This document shows, piece by piece, positions 9,473-43,995 of a stretch of 64,000 bases of DNA. The notes beneath the pieces are model-generated. The model made no database searches and had not been told where the DNA came from. It worked only from the letters and a program-made list of their open reading frames with translations. This DNA comes from Mucidula mucida. Its lineage: Eukaryota; Basidiomycota; Agaricomycetes; Agaricales; Physalacriaceae. Positions within the stretch are counted from its first letter, which is position 1. Each line of letters starts with the position of its first letter. Location of the stretch: NCBI GenBank assembly GCA_015501055.1, contig JADNYV010000009.1, positions 533,725 to 597,724 on the forward strand, given 5' to 3'. A program made the position numbers and the translations under genes.

Positions 9473-11118
9473 TTACACGACCTCTTCGTTCATATTCCCT
9501 TGCAACGACGACATCCAAATTCGCGTTTTATACAATCTATCGTGCTGTTAGTATTTACTCGACTGTTTCAAGAGGAACATACCGGAATAACTCTCTCACA
9601 AGCTCGCGGAAATCAATCCTTTTCTCGGTGATATAATAGAAGGTCAACTTGTGGCGATCCCTGGAGAAATTTGGATGCCAGTCATCAAGATAACTCATCC
9701 ACATACCACTGGTATTCCGCATCCACCACCTCCATCGGCAACTTTCGCCCGCGCACCTTCATCCGACACACATCCAACGCCCTCGCCTCATCCGCGGCCT
9801 TGGCAGCAAGCCCCTCAATGTCCACCCGCGTAGCTTTGCTGTAAATGACCTTTGGATTGATTTCCTTCTTCTCCCCAATGCTGGCACGATGCGCCTCAAC
9901 GTCTTGCGCGGTGATGGTATCGTTGATAACGCGTCCCAAGTCCTTCCCTCGATCAGCCTCGACAATCACAAGATCACCAACGCGTATATCCTGAGACGTG
10001 TCGGTGAGGTAGAACAGATCCGTACGGCCAGCCTTGAACTCTACAATGAAGAGGGGCAATGCATGGGAGTAAGATTGGGCGCGGATATGCGAAGGGGAGG
10101 TCGTGGCGTTGACAAACGACGCGCCATTTGGCGTTGAGGGGGAACGTGGGAACTGCGCCTGCTTCGGAGGAGGGGCGTGGAACCTGTCTTCTTCAGGAGT
10201 CCTGTTCTGGAAGTTCATAGGGTGGAACGAGGCACTGGGCGGACTCCTGGCGTAAGTGGGCATCGAGGAAGGCTGAGATGGGCCCTTCATGATAATGCTA
10301 TTGAGACTGAGCGAGTCGAAATCACCGGCGAGGTCCTCGTCCGACAGCATAAGACCACCGCCGCGCGACTGCTGAGCCTGGTGGGATTCCGTACCGGGTG
10401 CATTGAATCCAACTATTGCAGTGCGCGGCTTCACGACGCTGACGCTGTGCCTACGACTGGTAGTCCCACTGTCGCCCCCGTTATCGCCGTCGCGTGGTTG
10501 ACTCGAGGCCAGGAGAACATCACGCATGAAGGGGCTCATGTTGGACCCGTCATTGAAGCCGGTATAGACGCCCGAGGGCGAATGACCCGTGCCATATCCA
10601 GGGCGTCTGACATCGCCATAGCGCGACATGGTCAGTCCAGGCTCGTTCCAGCTCGCCATTCTCGAAGTGGTGGTCAGAAATGGACTGCCTATGGGGGTGG
10701 GCCGTTCGACGGCGAGACTGTGCGATCTACTTCGCGAGATGTCCTGAGCATACGAGCGTCCGCGTGAGAGAGAAGATGGAATGAATTGCTCGGAATGATG
10801 GTCGTCTGTCTCTGCAAAAAAGTCCTCCGATTCGTCATCTTCAAACGTCGATGCAAAGGGCGAGAACTGGGCTGTGATGCCGACCTCGGAGGGGCTGCGC
10901 GCAGAAAAGGACAGGCTCCTGGATGTGCTGGTGTTGAGCAGGCCGTGCGTGGCCCATGGTCCCTGACGCAGACTCGGTGCTGGCAGGATAGACTGGGCCG
11001 AGCTGTGCGGTGGTTGGGACGCCGCCCGCTCGCGAGGAAAGCCGGCACCGTCAGTGGTGGGGTCCAGAAAACGGTTTGTCCTGTCATCGTCGTCTGACTG
11101 TTTGTGATGGTGGTACAT
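9473..11118 (-). CDS. PSP1 C-terminal domain protein
   Basis: A long first exon (11118 down to about 9690) encodes a low-complexity Ser/Pro/Arg-rich N-terminus of about 350 residues, probably disordered, followed by the PSP1 C-terminal domain. Marks of the domain are LPLFIVEFKAGRTDLFYLTD, GDLVIVEADRGKDLG, then RALDVCRMKVRGRKLPMEVV and DAEYQW. After an intron come HKLTFYYITEKRIDF and RELVRELFR, and after another LYKTRIWMSSL with a short end NMNEEVV. In bacteria this domain is found in RicT/YaaT-type proteins; in yeast PSP1 suppresses DNA polymerase alpha mutants and is linked to mRNA regulation. The exact role here is unknown. The total is about 515 aa with no frame break. Confidence 0.85.
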
Positions 11119-14100
11119 GGCGCCCTCCGTCTATACGAATCTATGGTCTAGGGTCGTAATCTAGTCTGGCCGACGTCTATGAGGTGGTGGTACAGGCTTT
11201 AGCGGCGTTCAGAAGTTCATAAATGTCTAGAAGATGGCGGTGAGAGAAAAAGTCGCAGCTGACCCGTCACATGCCCCATACCCCGCATTCATGACGCTCC
11301 TTCCGACTTTGCCCAGTTTAACTCAGGTTTTATTGTTCAAGTTCTTCTAGTCCAAGGGCGTGCAATGTCGCTTCTTCCATCTATTCTCGTCTTTCAGAAA
11401 AGTAATGTTGTCCTACCTCCGTCACTCTCGGAACTTGCGCGGCACCAAAATTTCTACTGTTCTTGTCTTGTGGTCTAATATTCAATTGAGTCGGAATCTC
11501 TTACGTGTCTTCTCTATGTGGTGGACTACTGCAATGAATGGACGGTCAATGCCGAACCTATCTTGGAACAACCGCTGCTGCTCCAGACTCCAGTGCGCCC
11601 CCCGGTTTGTATGTCAGAAAGGAGGCTAACCGACGAGAATGACACGAGCAATAGCAACGGCGGAACACACTGCCTCGAACTCCATAAGTATTATTCTTGG
11701 CAGACTTCCACTTCCGTTGATGCAGGAACGTTGACAGCCAATATGCTGGAATCAAGGGAGTTACTTTGACTTGGCTTATTCGTGGGTTAATCGCGCATGT
11801 CCGCCAATAGATATTAACAAGTTCGTAGGAATCTACCGAAGTTGATCTAGCGGACGGTTAGCGGAGGAACTGCATCCAATTTCTCCCATGTATAGCCCGC
11901 CAAATACTCAATCAAAGAACGAAGACTGCGGCACACGATTCTAGTTCTCGCATTCATCTCGTTCTTGCATAAACGCCTGGGAATATTACGACTGTGGCGC
12001 TGTTCTCCATTCTTTTCTCTTCGGGTTGTATGTCTTCCATCATTTATAGCCCGTTCTGTCCACATACCTCGTATTGCCGCACTGAGAAGTACGGTGTTCT
12101 CCGAGTTCTCTTTGGCATTCGGGGAGGAGGTGAATGTCTTCCACAAAGTGAAGCGTCAGGCTCGACGCGCGAAAGCCTCATGGCTCCATTGATGCTACTG
12201 CTTTCATCCTCTCAATAAGAACGAGCCGAAAATGAGTCACGTCGCGTTGACTGTTGAATTGTGTAACGAGATACTAGCATTCATCACGTGGTCATGGAAC
12301 GTTCGTCGTGTTCTGAATCTTTACTTGTTCGAAATCAGCGTTGGTAGAGATAGCGGCGCAGTGGAGAACTTCTCATATCTAAGTATGTTCTCGTAAAGAA
12401 TGGCAATTGACGTCCGAAATGGGGCGTCTTTTGAGGCCCAACTCCGCACATCAGCGTGTTTTGTTGGAGTCTCTGAAGTCCGCCTCAAAGTACATGATTA
12501 CGTGCAATTTAGGGAACTAGATCTTAGTAACTACTTCAATACAGTACTTGAGCAGCCGCTGAGTCGTGAGAGTAATAAGAAGTGAGTAGGAAGTGGGGCA
12601 TGGAAAGCAGTGGCAAATGTCTCCTCTGCCAACAGGTCGACAACATTCTCGACGTCATCGAACAGGGCCTAAACACGTACTGTGTAAATGACCGTTGATA
12701 TGGGGGAGCACAGTATCTTATAATCAAGTTTCTTGTGTGGCGCATTATGGCATCAAAGACCTTCAGGAATTGTTCGAACAGAATCAATTCAACGCGAATT
12801 TCCCTTGTGTGGTCGCCATTTTCAGACCCGCTGCGGAGCACATTCACGGGGATCTTGCATTATCGTCGATGATGTCACATCAAGGTCTTGTTTTGACCTC
12901 ACCGTCACGTTCTCGAAGACAGTTCAGAAATCTCGTTGTACCCATTCTTGGCCGATACTATTCGGTTGCGTGGAAGTCCGAAGGCCCCATATGCACCAGC
13001 CATCGTTTTCGGGTCTCTCTGGTCGCAATTCCCCACTGCTTTTTGCCGACTATGTCCTCGAATCACAGCCGGGATTACTGAGAAAACATGGAAGGAGATG
13101 CGTCGGGCGTGGAGAGGACAATAGAAAGGTGGCGCACAGTCGTCTTTCCCAAGTGCGTCGCGCTCAGCTTTCCCAGTTTTTTCTGTCCAACAGGCATACA
13201 GGCACTACAAGGCAGATAGTGTATCATTAAGCACAGCAGCCAGGCAATACTCAATTCGACGATCGCCTCATAGAGGTTCCGGATAGACATCAGCGACCCA
13301 GACACGCTCCCGCTCATTGATAACCGCAATGTATTTCACCAGCGGCGGAGATTATGGACAGCTTGACCAGCAGTTGTCGCAGTGGTGATCATGGAGTCAG
13401 ACCAGTTGTGAGGCAAACTCAAAGTCTCGTCGTCCCAGGTGAGAGCCAGCACTTTTGTTGCGAGCTCATCATTTCGCCGAAGCGACAGATCCTCAATTTA
13501 AAAACCAATGACTTCGGCGCTGTTAAAGCTGTAGCATCACGATAATTGACTTGAAATGACCTACAACGCTCTTGATTCACCACGAAACCGGACAATTCGA
13601 TCCGCAACAAGTGTGGCGTACATCATGCACATCACCAACTCACCAAACACACTGTTTGCAGGTAACACCGACAGGGTGCGTTTGCACTGCCGTGATAGAA
13701 TCAAGCTGTTCTGAATGCACTATAAGTGCATAGACGCCACGGCCGCTCCACGGTCTCAGGTGGAGTCAAAAGATCCGAAGGCATGCCAGCCTAATGTGAT
13801 ACTCCGCACTTAGTGCTGACTGAGGTAGGTCCATGCTATAGTTCTGGCAGTCGCTACTAGTACCGGCGCTCAAAGGGAGTCAAAGCTCGCGATCCCTTGC
13901 GTTAATCGTAAAGTTCTTGCCACAACTATATTTGAGACTGACGTACGTGGTGCCCATCTAGTTTGGTTCGTCGAAATGGTACGAAAGTTCGGGAAGATTC
14001 CATTGATTCGGTCAGTTGCTTATAGTTCGACCCGTCGTGAGAGACATCGCCATATTCACTTCATCCATGGAAGATATGCGTTCACTGGATCCCCTAGAAG

Positions 14101-34472: not shown

Positions 34473-36669
34473 CTACTTGAGCAGTAAGCTGCGCTTTCTC
34501 GCAGCTCCCGCAAGAACAAGCGCAACCAAAATCATAATCCACTTCTTGTATGACCAACCGCCGTCAGTAGCTGATGGCGGTCCAGTCGGCCGTTTTCCAG
34601 GCAACCCCCAGAATACTAAGCCAGACTGCTTGATCTTCGTGGCCTATGAAACAATGAGTACGCGTCGCAAGTTATACCTTTCCCTGCTTACAGTATACGG
34701 CGGGTATCGTAGTTTCAACAAAAGATCCACCCTACGTAGAACGCTTGTAAGTTTCGCACGAGCAATGACCTGGCATGCTTACCAGGATGGTGAATCTAAC
34801 GACGCTCGGAAATGTGTAAAAGTATCAAAGCCATACTAAAAACTTTTTCAATCGGAGTGCACGAGATCTTTGAAGATACGTACCTTTCCGTTATGAAATC
34901 CAGCTGTTATGCGCCAGTCAAAACGCATATATCACAATGAGAAAAGGAAGACTGACTTCCGCTGGGACCGATCCCACCAAACGGTATACCATCACATCCG
35001 GCTTGCCACAGAGTATCGTTCATCACGATAGACCCACTAACTGTGCTCTTGAGAACTGAACCATACGTCAGTCTGGGAGAATTATACGCAAGAAGTAACA
35101 GACTTTTTGACTTGAACGCACTATCGGTCGAGAACACGTAGAGAGTCAAAGGATACTGGCCCTTGTTCACGAACGCGATGCCTTCCTCCAAGCTGTCGAT
35201 GGGAATGACGGGTAAGAGGGGACCGAAAATCTCTCTACAAAGGGTGTTTAGCGTTAGGCTCGATCGAAAAGCCTTAGCGCGTACTCGGACATAAGAGGAT
35301 CATCAAAAGAGACATCTTTCACGATCGTAGGCGCGATTGCCTTCGTAGCTTCGTCCATCTGCCCCCCGAAAACGACGGTTCCTCGTGTCTTCTCTAATAA
35401 TCCGGAGACCCGCTTGAAGGCTTGTTCGTTGATCATTTTCCCCATCGCGTTTGGTGCGAATGGTCCCTGGGGATAGAAAGAGTCGTGTCTGAGGTCAAAG
35501 GTTCAGCATCAACCTGAGAGGGAGTAGTAATGAGTTCACGTCTTTTTGAGTGCTTGAAGAAATGTCTCCTGGAAATGTCGCGGAACGAGAACGTAGTCAG
35601 GCGCAATGCACGTCTGGCCCGAGTTGGTGACCTTGCCCCATAATAGGCGGCGGGCCGTAGTCTCCAAATCGCATGAAGGATCAATAAAGACAGGACTCTT
35701 GCCTAAGTGCAGATGTCAGCAACTGAGACGGTCCTCATAACGCGACAAGACGCTTACCTCCCAGCTCAAGCGTAACAGGCGATAGTGTCTTACCCGCTGC
35801 TGTCGCTACGACGCGACCGACGCGTCCACTCCCGGTGAATAGAACTACTATGGTGTCAGTCCATGGAACTAAAGTGAACCGCATTACCTACTATGTCCCC
35901 AAGTAAATTCAAGCAGCTGTGAAAGTCTATCAGCATATCAAACTATATAGACTAAAGAATTGATCTACCTTCGAGGTCTCCGCGATGCCTCCATTGACGA
36001 CGCGAACGACCGACGGGTCAATATACTTGGGAAACATCTCCGCGAAAAGAGCAGACATTGCCGGCGTCGCTTCAGACGGCTTGAAAACGACAGTATTCCC
36101 AGCGGCGACAGCGGAAATCTGGTCAACATGAGCACAAGACCAAGTTCTCTCAAGACGAAACGCTAACGATTGGACCAATACACATGCTGATTGGATAATT
36201 GAAGGGGCCTATAACCAAGCACACGCCTTTGCCCTGCTTGTAGACAACGCGGCGCAACGGCTGGAAAAGCAAGGAAAAGGGCGGCTTGGTAGGCTTCGAC
36301 CATTCCTCGAGATGGGAGTACGTGTCCGAGATTTCGTTGTATACCGGGCCAATTTCCAGCCTAAGTTAGTTCCATGAGACAATGTTCAGTTCGATGTACT
36401 CGGGAGGACTCACGCGTGAGTTTCAAGATCTGGTTTGCCCAAATCCTGGTGCAGAGCATCGACAATCTTCTGCGTATTATCCTTGAGCATATACCCAATC
36501 TGCAGCAGCAGATATTTGCGAAAGGGAATGCTTTGCAGTTTGCCAGACCGAAACGTCGCGTCGAGCTGCGCGTGAATCTGGATGCGAAGATGTTAGAAGA
36601 TTTGGTGCTAATCGACGTGGAACGGACCGCGTCTATCTCAGAAATGGGTGTGTAGGCCAAAGTTGTCAT
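34473..36669 (-). CDS. Fatty aldehyde dehydrogenase, ALDH3/Hfd1 type, membrane-anchored (ALDH-2)
   Basis: A paralog of ALDH-1 with the same exon plan and activity class. The start [14 protein letters not shown] forms the first exon; then [86 protein letters not shown], the glutamate in LELGG, the cysteine in [20 protein letters not shown] and [10 protein letters not shown]. The last exons read RYPPYT, then [19 protein letters not shown] and the hydrophobic anchor [14 protein letters not shown] followed by a KRSLLLK end. No frame break is seen. The tail sequence differs much from ALDH-1, while the catalytic parts are close. It lies at the right border of the family-X array. Expression differences are not visible from sequence. 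Confidence 0.88.
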
Positions 36670-36880: not shown

Positions 36881-39330
36881 TCACGCAACGTCAGGTTTCG
36901 TTAGAACCAAAACCTTCCGCACCTCCTCCGCAATTGCTTGTGGTGGATCGCGTTTGCCAATTGGGCGTACTGCTGCTCAAGTGAGCCCGCAAATGTCCAA
37001 TGATCCTAAACACGGTTAACTTGTCGTCCTGTATGCGCTTGACCATCAGACTTACTGGGAAAGACAGGATTCGGGCAAGTTCCCGAACGGAGAGGAAGCG
37101 CTCCGGTTGCTCTATTAAATATTCAGAATTTCAAACAGAGAAAGTAGGAGGCTAGATACCTGGATGGCGACATCTGACACTTTTTGACGGGAGAACAAAG
37201 GTTTCTGTTGAGCACTATGAGCAAAGTTGACACCGACTGAGTAAGATCCCTACCAGGAAGAGGCGTATCCCATTCAGCTATAGTTGTGTTCGAGCCCACG
37301 CCGCAACATCAGGAACATAGCAATCGGTACAATGCGACGAAAATGGTTGGCGAGAATCAACAACATGGGGTGCCCAAGGCCTTGACTTGACCGGCGACAC
37401 GTAGGGTTAACCCACGTTAAATCAGAGATAACGTCTTTTAGCGCGAGAGGCGTGTCCTGTTTAGGCAACGGAAAGTCGGGAATGTTACGACCAGGCGCGC
37501 TTGCCATGATCACCAGATACTCCCTATATGCGGCGATTCCAAAGTCCGCTGCATCGAGTATCCGCGACCTGAGGCTATAACCCAATTTCATGGCATCGTA
37601 TTCCATGTTACTCAGTTCTAGGCGCGTTATTTTCTGCTAGAAGGACCGTCAGATTATCGAATCAAGGAGAAGTAAGATGCTCACCGGTGACAGGGTACAT
37701 ATCTGCCACGATGAGTGTTAGTGGATGATTGGTTTGCTGTTCGAAGAACCGGCTTACCGATATGCAGGTGTAAACTCTTGTATGGAACGTACGAAGTGTG
37801 CCTTGACCTTCGACAGTGCGCTTTCCGCTTCGCCGTTGACAAACAACGCCCCGAGCGGATAATCCAACATCGGTGTCTCGGACCAGGATCGTCCAAAAAA
37901 CTTATCTACGGATTCATGGTATACCGCGTTGCACAGTTTATCTATCAAAGATTAATTCCATCGCGTGGGTGATCAAGTGGAAAAGGCTCACCTGGAACAG
38001 GTGTGACATTCTCTCTTCACGTTCAACGCCAAACCGGAGATTGAAACCAGCTTCGCGGAAGCCATGCGAGGCGCCGCCGATGCCGCAGGACAAATCGCCA
38101 AATTCCAGCGATGTCATTGGCACGGTCGGGACAGCAGCGCCAACAACAGGTACAAACTCCAATTCAGCACCAGCGAAGACGACTTGCACTTGCAGAATCG
38201 CGCTCCTTCAACGTCCGACAGGAAGTCGGCAAGCACGTCAACGTTGGACACGGGTATTGGATCAGAATGGACATCCAATATATCCGAAATACGAAACCTC
38301 GCCCTGTCCCACCGGGGTGGCAGACTTGGAGCAGACCATTGGAGGGCGCATTCCTATGGATAAGATCCCAGGGAATATATTGAGAGATGGTGACAACCTC
38401 TGTAACATCCTCATCTTCAGGATCATCCGGGATGCCTATTGTGTGAACGTATACGACGGATGTTATTTCGCGATCATCACTCCCCCGCAGAGTAACCGTA
38501 TAGTAGTGATCCGCCGCAAGTCTCTTCTTGTTGACAAATCGCGCTTTGAGAGGCACGTACGTTTTGTCATCGGTTAACTATGAATGGAGTGAGTATTGGC
38601 CGCCTTTCAGAGGCAGTCGAACGTACCGGAAGTGTTGACTTGGCTACAAGATCATCGTACGTTGGTAGAGCCACTTCCGGGACGTCTTCGACCTTGCACT
38701 TAGGCTCTTCGATGTCAACCGAAATATTGTTGTCAATTTGATTACCGGCCTCATCGTCGTCATCGTCCTGGTCAAAGTTTGCGGCCATCATCGCCAGAGA
38801 GTGCTCATTGTCGACATACTCCAGCTCGTCGTCGTCGTTCCGGAGCACCGGAGGATCCGGTGTCAAACTCACTCTATCCGCGGGCCATGACGCATGATTC
38901 GGACTGACTAGGCCGTCGCACTGACTCGACTTGGCGTAAACATCCACGACGACACCGGTAAGGTCAGTCTCTGAGACATCGGTGCTGAGGCCTTCAATCT
39001 TTTCGTCAAACTTTGGGGTCGACACTTCCTTCCGGACTAGCTCCTCGTCCTTGACACGTACGACAACAATCCACGAGTCGGATGACCTCCCACGAGATGA
39101 GAACTTGATCTGGTTGATGGCGCACAACAGAAACGGAATCCAAACGCGGAGGTGATGGCGGGACAGAAAAGTGATGAGGGACGCTGTAAAGAGATCCCTG
39201 TTTCGCCGAACATATCTGCGCCACATATTTTCGTCCCAAAGGGACAGCATTCTCGTCTTTAAGTTTGAAAGTGGTGTCCCACCAATTTCGAACGAGCGTA
39301 AATGGCTTTTCTAGACAGATGTTGAGCGCG
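36881..39330 (-). pseudogene. Cytosine-5 DNA methyltransferase-like unit, catalytic motif IV not found
   Basis: Motif I is clear: LEFGDLSCGIGGASHGFREA followed by GFNLRFGVERE (SAM binding). Later come a motif VIII-like MEYDAMKLGYSLRSRILDAA and DFGIAAYREYLVIMASAPG, then ERFLSVRELARILSFP (motif IX/X area) and LEQQYAQLANAI before AIAEEVRKVLVLTKPDVA. The upstream part has LKARFVNKKRLAADHYYTV, VVYVHTIG and ISQYIPWDLIHR, which may be a BAH-like region, and an acidic stretch. I cannot find the PCQ catalytic motif between motif I and motif VIII, and the ENV motif reads ENNAP. At least two frame changes (near 36957 and around 38200-38290) are needed. It is probably inactive or poorly sequenced. It lies directly after the GHKL ATPase unit on the same strand, possibly as its C-terminal half. 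Confidence 0.65.
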
Positions 39331-39340
39331 AGTAACAACT

Positions 39341-41678
39341 TCAAAATTCTTGTGACAAACCTAAATTCGAAGCTGGCGGATTGACATCTGTTGAGGCCTC
39401 CATTGCAGTGCTAGTCCCAGTATCCGATGAATTGGCAAGAAGAGACGTCCTTGATTCGACATCGGCGGTTATCGTGACTATGAATTCCAGCACAATGGCC
39501 GCTGTACGCCACGAGAGCTGCATTCCTCCCGGACCCAAACCTCTCGTCGGCTTGAGCGGTTGAAATCGTACGTCCCGGGGTAAGGTCTGAAGGATGTTTT
39601 GACGGGTATACGGAATGCCTATCTTCCACTGCTGAGATGCATTGGTGTTCTCCTGCCCAAGAAGGGAGAGGATATGGAGGGCGGAGCATGGGCATATAAA
39701 GTCGGGTCCGACGTCAGGAAATTTGTGCTCCTCCGAAAGCGCAGAATAGTCTGCATGAGGCATAATTAGTTCCGCGTCGTCCAGAGTTGCGCGATACCGC
39801 AGATAGGATGGACACTCGGGTTGCTTCATGTGGACATACACGTAGGAGAGCCTGCAATCATTGATGAAGATGTTTTGACCGGCAGTATCCACTTCGATTC
39901 CCATGTTCGGCGGCGCAGCTTTGAAGCTGTAGGCGTCTCGGTAACATTCCATACCCTTTTCCCTTCGCAAAAAGGCATCAATGAGATGCAAGGTGAACTG
40001 CACCTGGGGGACCAAGGAGGCATCAAGATTTCGAAATTGTTCCGTTCGAGCCTGTTCCGGAGTCTGAATGATTTCGTGCTTTAAGAGAAGCGCGTAAAAT
40101 TTCTGTGACAGTCCGTAAGGCTTTTCCCGAAGGATCGTTTCTGTGATTCGGAGGTCCTCCTGAGAATCGATGCAATAGAAGAATACATCAGGGCCTTGTT
40201 GCTCCCGTAGGCGCTTCCAGAGCACTTTCAGGTCTCGACACTTCATCAACTTGTCGGAATATTCGACCTCAACGGATGACCAAGGGCCAAGGAGGAGTTT
40301 TAGATATAAATCCTTTGCTTTGACATCTGTAACAAAGAGTCGAGCCCAGATTGGATACACGGACTTAGCAATGTCGAAGTCCGTATGGAAACCATCTCGA
40401 TCACGGGAAAGGGAGACTTTCTTTATCATTATGTTAGCACCATACATTAGGTGGTCGTACTTGAGAACATGTATCCGTTTCACCTGTCACATCCATGTTA
40501 ATCAAAGTTCACGATTGAAAGCAACATACTGACGTAGACCTCGTGCGCCAGGCGCGCGTCTAAAAGGATGGAGCCAAGTTTGGTCGTCATGCATGTAGCA
40601 GGTGGACGTAGAAAAAGAAACCTATCGATATGAACGTCGCTCCGAGGGAAGCCGACAATTCGAATCAGTATACCGAGAACGAAGGGAATGTCGGACTTGG
40701 TCTCTCGGACCTCAAGTGACGCTTCATCGTTGTAGGCAAAATCCCATTGGACAGTTCCTGTTATGTAGTGCACATCTGGGGACTGGGCCTGACCCCCCCA
40801 GCCATCGTTTTCTGGTCTCATAATTGCATTAACGCCCTACCAAAGCTTGCACTGAGAACGCCATGCAAGAACATCATCAAGGGTACTCACCATCTTCATA
40901 CCATCTCCATGTTCACCAGCCAACTCGTCAGTCGTGGCTTTCGTGGTCGCACCAAACGTCATCATAGCCGATGTCAAAGGCTGGTGAACGTTGAACAGTT
41001 CGATAGCAAATTTCCTGTCGGAGGTAGCTTTAAGGCCAATCCAACCAAGTAGACGAGGATTATTCCATATATAACCGTCACCTTGCCGCTCAGACTGACG
41101 TCGATTAGCGGTGCGCTTCCCATGTCTATTTAGAGTACCATTCGCCTTGGAGACAGTAGGCGGCAGGGGAAGAGGAGGCGGCTCAGGAAGAGTATCTTTG
41201 ACGGTGAAGACAAATACAATCGCGCTCCCATTGCTGATTTGGTTGAGGTCGTAGTCTCAATGGGGCCCGTCAGCCTCAGTGTCGGTCCCTAACTTTTCGC
41301 CATCGCGTAGAACAGTGACCTGGATGTCATCTGCGGTAGCGGCCGGTCTGTTGGACTGCATAAACGCGATAAATCCATCCCAGATATTCTGGAAAAGCTC
41401 TCGTAGCCCAGCATCTCTTCCCCATTGCCCGTTGTCACCATAATCGGCTTGAATGTTCAAATCCTTTCTCTTTTTCAAGGCCGGCAGGCCATGCACGTGG
41501 ATAGAGTAGTCCGCCCAGCTCCGGGAAGCTTGGGCTTCCGTTTGCGCTTTTTGACCGCGTCGCCCGTGTCGTTCCTCAGTCGCTTGTGAGCGGGCCCGTC
41601 GTCGTCGTCGTCATCGCCCTCTTCGTCTTCGTAGTCGCGGTCCGCAGACGCTGACCAGCGCAAGAACTGGACAATCAT
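39341..41678 (-). pseudogene. GHKL/HSP90-like ATPase protein, damaged
   Basis: The N-terminal part has an acidic, Lys-rich leader, then QWGRDAGLRELFQNIWDGFI, in which ELFQNIWD fits the Bergerat-fold N-box (E-x3-N-x2-D). Later FGATTKATTDELAGEHGDGMK fits the G-box around GEHGDGMK. The long frame 39341-40483 continues the family pattern (KRIHVLKYDHLMYGANIMIK, ARLFVTDVKAKDLY, LLKHEIIQTPEQ). Damage: a one-base frame change near 41518 and an in-frame TGA after EADGPH at about 41257. Similar proteins with WGxDAxxRELxQN motifs are frequent in mushrooms; their function is unknown. Same-strand text just after it (DENMWRRYVRRNRDLF) leads into the methyltransferase unit with no promoter-sized gap. Confidence 0.6.
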
Positions 41679-42330: not shown

Positions 42331-43532
42331 TCAAACGCAAACTAAACGTACCCAATACCCATCCTGCAGCACCTTTCCCTCCTCACTAAGCACAAAATCG
42401 CTAGGCTCCGCAATGTCCGACAACGAGATAAACGCCCCCCGCATCTTCTCTTCGCGCTCTCGTCCACCCAGAGCGGCGTAGGCCAGGTGCCGGCTGCCCT
42501 CTTCAGGCGTGATCGCAAGTAGCTTGTACAACATGTACATCAAGAAGGCAGAGACTCGGCTTCCCGATGTGAGGTTCCGACTGAGCTCAGAGGTGCAGAA
42601 CGATGGGTTTACGGATACGGCGATCACGGGGCAGGATGCTTGTGAGAGGCGGTCTTGGAGGGCGCGGGTGAAGAGGACATTGAGTACTATAGAACAGGCA
42701 AAATTTAGTTGGTGGAATGGCGATAGTAGCGGTTGAACCTACATTTACAGATGTTATAGCGCGTTCCACCTAAACGACTAGTGTGGCGTGTTAGCCATTT
42801 ATATCAAACAAAGGATTGAGTACATACCTTGGTGTACAATAGGTCTTATCCGACAGCTTCTCCAGCAGGGCCGGGGCTTCAATGAGCTCCTTCCCGATCT
42901 CTGCCCAGTAATGGACCTCGCTAGCTACTGTGACCAAGCGTGGCGTAGTAGAGAACTCCGCCGCGGTCCTTACCATGTGGGGCAGGAGACGCAGGGAAAG
43001 CAATGGTGAGGCTATATTATTGACCTGCAAACTATGGGTCTGTCAATGACTGCAACCATGTAGCGAAGATAGATGATACATACCAAGTTTCCCAACCATC
43101 GACAGTGGCCGAGTACGTAGGGTGAATAACAGCAGCGTTCATAACCAGTATATCGAGCCTTCCCCCATCCTTATCGAATTTGTCTGCAAAGGACGACACG
43201 GACGCAAAATCGGCAAGTTCCACGAGCCATAATTCAGCTTTGAAGCCACTCTCTGATGAGAGTCCTGTAGAAAGCGGAATTTTCAGAAAGCTGAAAGCAG
43301 GCGGTCATAGAAAAGAATTACTGTCAACAGCCGCCTGCCCTCGCTCCTTGCTCCGACAAGCCATGATCAACCTGCCGGGATTCATCAACGCGAAGTGCTT
43401 CGCCGCCTCGTACCCGATACCAGTATTCGCGCCGACGACGATGACGGTCTTCCCAGACAGATCAACCTTGACCACCGGAGGTACTTTCGTATACTGGTCC
43501 TTGGCCCACCCGAGCATAGATTTCTTGGCCAT
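42331..43532 (-). CDS. Short-chain dehydrogenase/reductase (retinol dehydrogenase-like)
   Basis: A classical SDR with NAD(P)+ binding. The start MAKKSMLGWAKDQYTK is preferred because an earlier Met (43721) adds unlike text. VIVVGANTGIGYEAAKHF holds the TGxxxGxG-type glycine motif, then LIMACRSKERGQAAV, VELADFASV, LDILVMNAAVIHP (NAA-type motif), LQVNNIASPLLSL and RLVTVASEVHY with the serine region. A short-intron join gives RYNICKLLNVLFTRALQ, whose Y-x3-K is the catalytic pair, then SVNPSFCTSELSRNL and a C-terminal tail ending WVRLVCV. Exon joins keep one frame; length is about 320 aa, as expected. The substrate is unknown: lipophilic alcohols or steroids are typical for this group. Confidence 0.82.
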
Positions 43533-43650
43533 CGTTGGATCGTGTAGCTTCAGTAGAGCGTGGGTGAAAGTGATGCATAACCAGACCACCCGCTGGGCCT
43601 TTATACCGAGAAAGAGCCATAGAATTCTCTCAGGAAGAGCAGTAACGCGT

Positions 43651-43995
43651 TTAGACGGCGCTGACTTCTTTGTGTAAGTAAGCCACGCGCGATGGTAGAA
43701 CGGTTGTGTACACGTACACATTCTGGTGCCGAAAAAAGTAATCCGATGGTTCCTTGAGCTCGAGCTCGTTGGATTTTGGTCGATATACTACCCTCCTCAC
43801 CTTTGCATCTGTGAGCCGGTCCTCTGTATCTTCAGAACGCAAACTCTGCAGACCAAGAAGAATTATCTCCGTGTCAGCTCGTTCAAGTAACGCTCCTCTG
43901 AAGAACGCGTGTGTCACTCGGCCGTTGATAGAACTTACACTCTTCAGCTTAGCAATATCTCCGTAAGCTGTCGGTGCTCTACCGAGGTATGACAT
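43651..43995 (-). CDS. Small hypothetical protein, possible two-exon gene
   Basis: The frame starts MSYLGRAPTAYGDIAKL, followed by a good intron (GTAAGT to CTGCAG) and a second exon with LRSEDTEDRLTDAK and VVYRPKSNELELKEPSDYFF. I do not recognise it. The size and tone resemble small mitochondrial or structural proteins, but this is a guess. It lies about 120 bp upstream of the SDR start, so it could also be part of an SDR leader; the frames differ. Confidence 0.35.
   Translation of the reverse strand: MSYLGRAPTAYGDIAKLKSVSSINGRVTHAFFRGALLERADTEIILLGLQSLRSEDTEDRLTDAKVRRVVYRPKSNELELKEPSDYFFRHQNVYVYTTVLPSRVAYLHKEVSAV

Follow-up and report, generated by a model that had tools for sequence, protein, structure and literature searches.

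A GHKL-type domain and a C5-methyltransferase domain lacking catalytic residues in a single agaricomycete protein, with a decayed copy in Mucidula mucida

To our knowledge, where GHKL ATPases and cytosine methylases occur together, in bacterial restriction operons and in eukaryotic silencing, they do so as separate proteins. MORC genes adjoin cytosine methylase genes in bacteria and are reported absent from fungi, according to passages of PMC2292703, and an ATPase joined to a C5-methyltransferase in one chain is described for the fungal protein DNMT5, whose ATPase is of the SNF2 type (part of PMC13297926). Here we describe a gene family of Agaricomycetes in which a GHKL-type domain precedes a C5-methyltransferase domain within the same chain, with a decayed copy in a 64,000-nucleotide stretch of the Mucidula mucida genome (contig JADNYV010000009.1, positions 533,725 to 597,724; hereafter the window).

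A reading of the window from its letters and open reading frames (the sequence-only reading) had proposed a GHKL ATPase followed, without a promoter-sized gap, by a methyltransferase-like unit. The segment 41678-36887 on the minus strand is one spliced gene. Residues 35-1454 of P0001, a Hymenopellis radicata protein of 1456 residues, map collinearly onto window positions 41636-36890 with small gaps, the main pieces being 68-100% identical, and this collinearity over the whole window gene supports a fusion of the two parts. The presumed join at 39.2-39.4 kb proved to be a 50-bp intron (39360-39311) separating two exons of the same gene. Introns of 49-54 bp, all GT-AG, were placed at five sites, the later introns not being placed individually, and three-frame reading of the minus strand gave an open stretch of 381 codons in the middle of the gene. 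Shuffled P0001 queries (n = 100) gave 0 matches at E <= 1e-4 against the three Mucidula loci described below. The encoded protein starts with a basic N-terminus and the GHKL ATPase domain, continues through a long middle region into an FN3-like domain and then a beta-rich region, and ends in a DNMT1-type C5-methyltransferase domain, laid out as follows.

36887..41678, minus strand: whole decayed gene (GHKL, middle region, FN3-like, beta-rich, apparently dead C5-methyltransferase); collinear with P0001 35-1454, exon-intron layout.
40891..41511, minus strand: what remains of exon 1 beyond the first frame change (N-terminal half of the GHKL domain), with one TGA near 41.26 kb; 68-79% identical to P0001 81-286.
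41377..41400, minus strand: GHKL N-box ELFQNIWD, by translation; E, N and D invariant in 7/7 homolog fragments.
40894..40917, minus strand: GHKL glycine box GEHGDGMK, by translation; G..G.G.K invariant in 7/7 homolog fragments.
40534..40836, minus strand: exon 2, end of the GHKL domain; 77% identical to P0001 287-389.
39361..40483, minus strand: exon 3, long middle region; 80% identical to P0001 389-762.
38627..39310, minus strand: exon 4, encoding the FN3-like domain and an acidic linker, with a frame change near 39.08 kb; 79% (P0001 771-845) and 85% (852-1007) identical, FN3 by Pfam in the homolog P0010.
37992..38577, minus strand: exon 5, encoding the beta-rich region followed by the first part of the methyltransferase, with frame changes near 38.31 and 38.19 kb; 92%, 88% and 86% identical to P0001 pieces.
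38058..38099, minus strand: methyltransferase motif I (S-adenosylmethionine, SAM, motif) GDLSCGIGGASHGF; PF00145 E 2.2e-4.
37817..37849, minus strand: methyltransferase motif IV site, ALFVNGEAESA, without the catalytic Cys; alignment with the RID-like enzyme P0006.
37373..37636, minus strand: methyltransferase motif VIII and target-recognition region; PF00145 E 3.1e-4, 88% identical to P0001 1274-1361.
36890..37112, minus strand: motifs IX and X of the methyltransferase and the C-terminus, with a frame change near 36.95 kb; 73-95% identical to P0001 1394-1454 in three frames.

The window gene is a decayed copy of one gene, because it carries seven frame changes within exons (near 41.51, 39.08, 38.31, 38.19, 37.35, 37.29 and 36.95 kb) in addition to the TGA; the changes were counted inside stretches that are single exons in an open paralog, gene A, and the two near 37.3 kb depend on short matches. 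The damage is somewhat greater than in the sequence-only reading, which had named frameshifts and one stop. The window copy itself most likely yields no working protein.

The M. mucida assembly (59.9 Mb, 1047 contigs) gave 13 matches to the N-half and 21 to the C-half of the window protein, and both halves co-occurred in the same order at 3/3 loci having the N-half, namely the window, gene A and a further paralog, gene B; the N-half alone turned up at no locus in this search, whose tool scores best candidates only. Genes A and B sit on contig C102 and again on contig C681, and the two stretches are 98.7-100% identical, as expected for two haplotypes or a duplicated contig. On both contigs the reading frame of gene A stays open from a point ahead of the N-box through to the stop, with 11 exons, 1429 codons and introns of 48-61 bp, and a single exon (C102 44547-45137) encodes the beta-rich region together with motif I. 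Its two copies differ at five synonymous and three nonsynonymous codons, a ratio of nonsynonymous to synonymous proportions (pN/pS) of 0.18 that fits purifying selection, though on eight differences only. Gene B is without the middle exon and has an early frame change and an altered glycine box; the database protein P0004 reads identically to it over long stretches. The copies within this one genome are far apart in sequence, at about 45% for the window copy against either gene A or gene B. Genes A and B are convergent, and the interval between them (C102 46.4-52.4 kb) contains an MFS transporter (PF07690, E 1.1e-18) as well as an open reading frame with a P-loop-like motif, SSGTGKSR; the scanned part of this region (C102 50265-51203) matched no Pfam family.

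Searches of protein databases returned 14 proteins in all, two of which (P0006 and P0011) are methyltransferases without the N-half. Methyltransferase homology was found in 9 of the 12 that share the N-half or the middle region.

P0001, P0002, Hymenopellis radicata: fused.
P0003, Armillaria solidipes: fused.
P0005, A. novae-zelandiae: fused, C-terminus incomplete.
P0004, M. mucida gene B: fused.
P0009, Artomyces pyxidatus: fused.
P0010, P0012, Dentipellis: fused.
P0013, Hericium: partial, PF00145 at 18.3 bits only.
P0007, P0008, Armillaria gene models: without the methyltransferase half.
P0014, Madurella fahalii, 849 residues: GHKL boxes, no methyltransferase.

The sequence-only reading had left room for intact homologs of the two parts always being separate, unlinked genes; both are instead carried together at all three genome loci and in these nine proteins, and the order sought in other Agaricomycetes occurs in single proteins of Hymenopellis, Armillaria, Artomyces and Dentipellis. 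Artomyces and Dentipellis belong to Russulales, Hymenopellis and Mucidula to Agaricales, and the fused arrangement therefore spans two orders. The matches of P0003 follow one another along the window as those of P0001 do, and P0010 shows this order over fewer pieces. The contigs of P0010 and P0012 are equal in length (376,792) and are therefore probably one contig; the two Dentipellis copies are likewise far apart in sequence, at 54%. P0014, which has the same GHKL boxes, is a relative of the N-half that occurs by itself elsewhere in fungi. It is very improbable that the fusion is an artefact of gene predictors merging neighbouring genes or of frame changes introduced during assembly. In the databases the fusions are known as gene models, the Armillaria models P0007 and P0008 are without the methyltransferase half, and the frame changes in the window may be due to assembly error; however, models in several genera show the same order as the gene A exon join, taken from raw DNA of two contigs, and no space for a promoter is left.

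The methyltransferase domain was recognized by PF00145 in gene A (78.6 bits, E 7.7e-22), above the cut-off and with motif I and motifs VIII-X in order, and scores exceeded 22 bits in P0001, P0003, P0009, P0010 and P0012, with P0009 spanning model positions 2-322 of 324; the partial P0013 fell below the cut-off. The window itself matched in two pieces in the right order, a motif I piece (38207-37938, E 2.2e-4) and a motif VIII and target-recognition piece (37636-37274, E 3.1e-4), both just under Pfam's curated cut-off, in agreement with the proposed methyltransferase-like unit. A search of PDB with the family profile gave DNMT1 as the closest entry (E 1.9e-37), followed by HaeIII (4.6e-21); two entries that we take to be DNMT5 matched at E 1.1e-5 and 1.4e-4, and DNMT2 at 0.0026. 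The placement nearest to DNMT1 is one of PDB profile scores, and we know of no RID/Masc1 entry in PDB.

Motif I and the end motifs are retained in most members, whereas the catalytic Cys of motif IV is present in 0/11 sequences in an alignment against the RID-like P0006 (SPPCC), the only reference at motifs IV and VI, where the rice protein P0011 is out of register. The Cys column holds S in P0003, P0005 and P0012, R in P0002, P0004, P0009 and gene A, D in P0001, L in P0010, Y in P0013 and E in the window. In 7/11 members a Cys lies three columns upstream of the lost one (window 37849-37817 and homologs), for which chance, structure or a moved nucleophile are possible. Motif VI ENV is absent in 8/8 readable sequences, the other 3/11 being gapped there. 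A C5-methyltransferase at C305 in the same genome, examined as a control, has PPCQ, ENV and QDRRR in order. By motif shape, the C5-methyltransferases at C116/C818, C172 and C305 may be DNMT2, DNMT5 and DNMT1; these names are not used here, and C305 serves for its motifs alone. Judged by these residues, the METHYLTRANSFERASE of this family appears to be dead.

The mushroom family therefore shares with DNMT1-type enzymes a C-terminal PF00145 domain with SAM motif I, target-recognition region and motifs IX and X, but differs in its missing catalytic residues, in the GHKL domain placed in front and in the lack of any RFTS or BAH match (Pfam scans of gene A and homologs). With DNMT5 it has in common an ATPase plus a C5-methyltransferase in a single fungal protein; DNMT5, however, has a SNF2 rather than a GHKL ATPase (no SNF2 or helicase family appeared in the Pfam scans of gene A and homologs) and an active methyltransferase, and its presumed entries match the family profile weakly. 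A methyltransferase fold kept without catalysis is familiar from DNMT3L and DRM3, which belong with DNMT3 and DRM rather than with DNMT1 and are not known to have an ATPase domain. By analogy with DNMT3L, the family could regulate active methyltransferases, with its dead domain pairing with either DNMT1 or DNMT5 and its GHKL part gating the resulting complex. The DNMT1-like profile and the existence of the motif-complete C305 enzyme in the same genome speak for this, but the pairing itself has no evidence and DNMT1, in the cases known to us, acts without such a partner, so that we regard it as distinctly unlikely. It is more unlikely still that the family is functionless or nearly so, its members being relics of a single fusion event whose product is now in decay. 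The state of the window copy, the missing middle exon of gene B and the loss of the catalytic Cys throughout would agree with it, but four further genera, from two orders, still have long open proteins, and the gene A copies show relatively more synonymous than nonsynonymous change, on the few differences available.

The N-terminal domain has the N-box ExxxNxxD and the glycine box GxxGxG of GHKL proteins, both present in the window (minus strand), as the sequence-only reading had noted, together with a Bergerat fold, and its assignment as GHKL-type is well supported. The motif II Asp of GHKL proteins contacts adenine; in this family Asn replaces it in 7/7 homolog fragments, and because this hallmark is absent we call the domain GHKL-type and leave ATP use unclaimed. 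The methyltransferase without its catalytic Cys and the GHKL domain with Asn in motif II both differ from what the sequence-only reading expected. By sequence, the domain gave no match in Pfam, PDB sequences or NCBIfam, and PADLOC returned methylase matches only among the best 25 of 38-48 for five fusion proteins. The predicted structure resembles Hsp90/TRAP1 in a fold search, from which it differs in having 9-16% identity in the matches listed, no sequence-level match and no visible chaperone C-terminal part.

A sequence match was obtained with the phage family phrog_6077 (PHROGs), which has no assigned function. Its proteins, such as P0015 of Pectobacterium phage DU_PP_I, share RELxQNxxD, TK, a G-rich box and a later R-rich motif and likewise lack the motif II Asp, which is replaced in two phage relatives; they differ in being stand-alone proteins of 402 and 365 residues. 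Stand-alone proteins of this type were seen in large phages (L042:2845-4053 and L043:2348-3445), and in a Vibrio phage an annotated DNA methylase gene begins about 1.9 kb downstream of the phrog_6077-type gene. A tblastn search of the GHKL part against phages gave 37 weak records, with a best E of 1e-4 among the 20 listed. The phage family matched 1/14 control genomes (Thermus composti) and gave no match in the M. mucida genome at E <= 0.01, and scans of genome contigs for bacterial relatives with the fungal alignment (55 stretches) and the phage protein (25 stretches) confirmed none.

MORC proteins resemble the family in carrying a GHKL ATPase domain on a chromatin-type protein, but in the mushroom family the methyltransferase shares the chain. 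Many MORCs, though not all, contain zf-CW, which gave no match up to E 1 in 7 homolog proteins (Pfam). MORC was not among the listed matches of the structural searches, which does not exclude MORC, and no Pfam GHKL model matched. Of the link that the sequence-only reading drew to GHKL/MORC-methylase systems, a GHKL-type domain joined to a methyltransferase thus stands, but a MORC or restriction connection is not shown, the nearest described family being that of the phages.

This phage affinity bears on a further explanation, in which the protein belongs to a fast-evolving conflict system directed at viruses, transposons or non-self nuclei; the GHKL part, related to phage proteins, would be the effector or switch, and the dead methyltransferase would sense foreign or unmethylated DNA. 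It would accommodate the divergence of copies within the M. mucida and Dentipellis genomes, the decay of one copy and the exon loss of another, and the position of genes A and B on either side of the SSGTGKSR frame. No known toxic or effector domain was found in the Pfam scan of homologs, however, nor anything beyond methylases in the PADLOC matches shown, and divergence and decay of paralogs are common in ordinary gene families too; we consider it fairly unlikely.

Additional features were less distinct. FN3 (PF00041) matched P0010 at 27.6 bits against a cut-off of 25 (E 3.3e-6) and P0012 below the cut-off (E 6.9e-4), the other five of the seven proteins not being listed, and gene A gave a weak neogenin match (E 0.046-0.097) as a hint of the same domain. 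The region before the methyltransferase is BAH-like by eye, with no Pfam match and an AlphaFold model (predicted local distance difference test, pLDDT, 44) too poor for a fold search. Basic N-terminal clusters suggest a nuclear location. The neighbours of the window gene, both on the minus strand, are an aldehyde dehydrogenase at 34907-36600 (PF00171, E 7.9e-10) and, at 42331-43787, a probable short-chain dehydrogenase whose match to PF00106 (E 0.0011) falls below the cut-off. A search for transposon boundaries in 34.0-44.5 kb found no long direct or inverted repeats, merely short ones (16-25 nt). Elsewhere in the window, an open frame of 481 codons at 9685-11130 (minus strand) contains a PSP1 C-terminal region (PF04468, E 7.2e-9).

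On balance, and with somewhat better than even confidence, we favor the explanation that this single-chain agaricomycete protein, composed of a GHKL part and a dead methyltransferase part, works on DNA or chromatin as a clamp or switch that serves silencing or genome defence; the architecture is read directly from the genes, and the function is what we infer. The GHKL part would dimerise or change shape upon nucleotide binding and so serve as a nucleotide-gated clamp or switch, while the methyltransferase part would recognise DNA (perhaps its methylation state) or SAM without methylating and would place the clamp. Such a protein may act in silencing or genome defence as a MORC ATPase and a DNMT3L-type dead partner combined in one chain. 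Several observations weigh against this explanation. With Asn in motif II, the use of ATP could be weak or absent, the predicted GHKL model is moderate (pLDDT 64), and Foldseek with this model gave a best E of 2.7e-3 and none at E <= 0.001. Artomyces retains the motif VI Glu (FEATP), as does P0006 (LEQTF). The first in-frame Met of gene A falls inside the N-box, with none before it, which makes the 5' end and start codon provisional, and no protein identical to gene A was among the database proteins returned by the homolog search, so that its annotation is unconfirmed. Finally, the decay and variation of the gene copies would be expected just as well of a conflict gene or of a dispensable one.

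A more far-reaching form of the clamp explanation is possible but doubtful. Agaricomycetes, in a kingdom reported to be without MORC, may have joined a phage-type GHKL domain to a DNMT1-like one and so obtained an ATP-gated silencing clamp of their own; the DNMT1-like domain would then have lost its catalysis before the split of Agaricales and Russulales and become a built-in reader of DNA or SAM.

No title or abstract describing a GHKL-methyltransferase fusion was found in the literature search; most subscription papers lay outside it, and absence from print is not proven. The evidence supports as new the presence of a GHKL domain and a dead C5-methyltransferase in one chain, the association itself being already known. 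Two Armillaria members are labeled DNA (cytosine-5-)-methyltransferase in UniRef and should not count as active enzymes. The family would add a member to the fungal methylation toolkit that goes unmentioned in the main text of two reviews (PMC7862722, PMC13297926), where GHKL and MORC have zero occurrences. A conserved single-chain version in mushrooms would let one ask what the GHKL part does when its methylation partner only senses.

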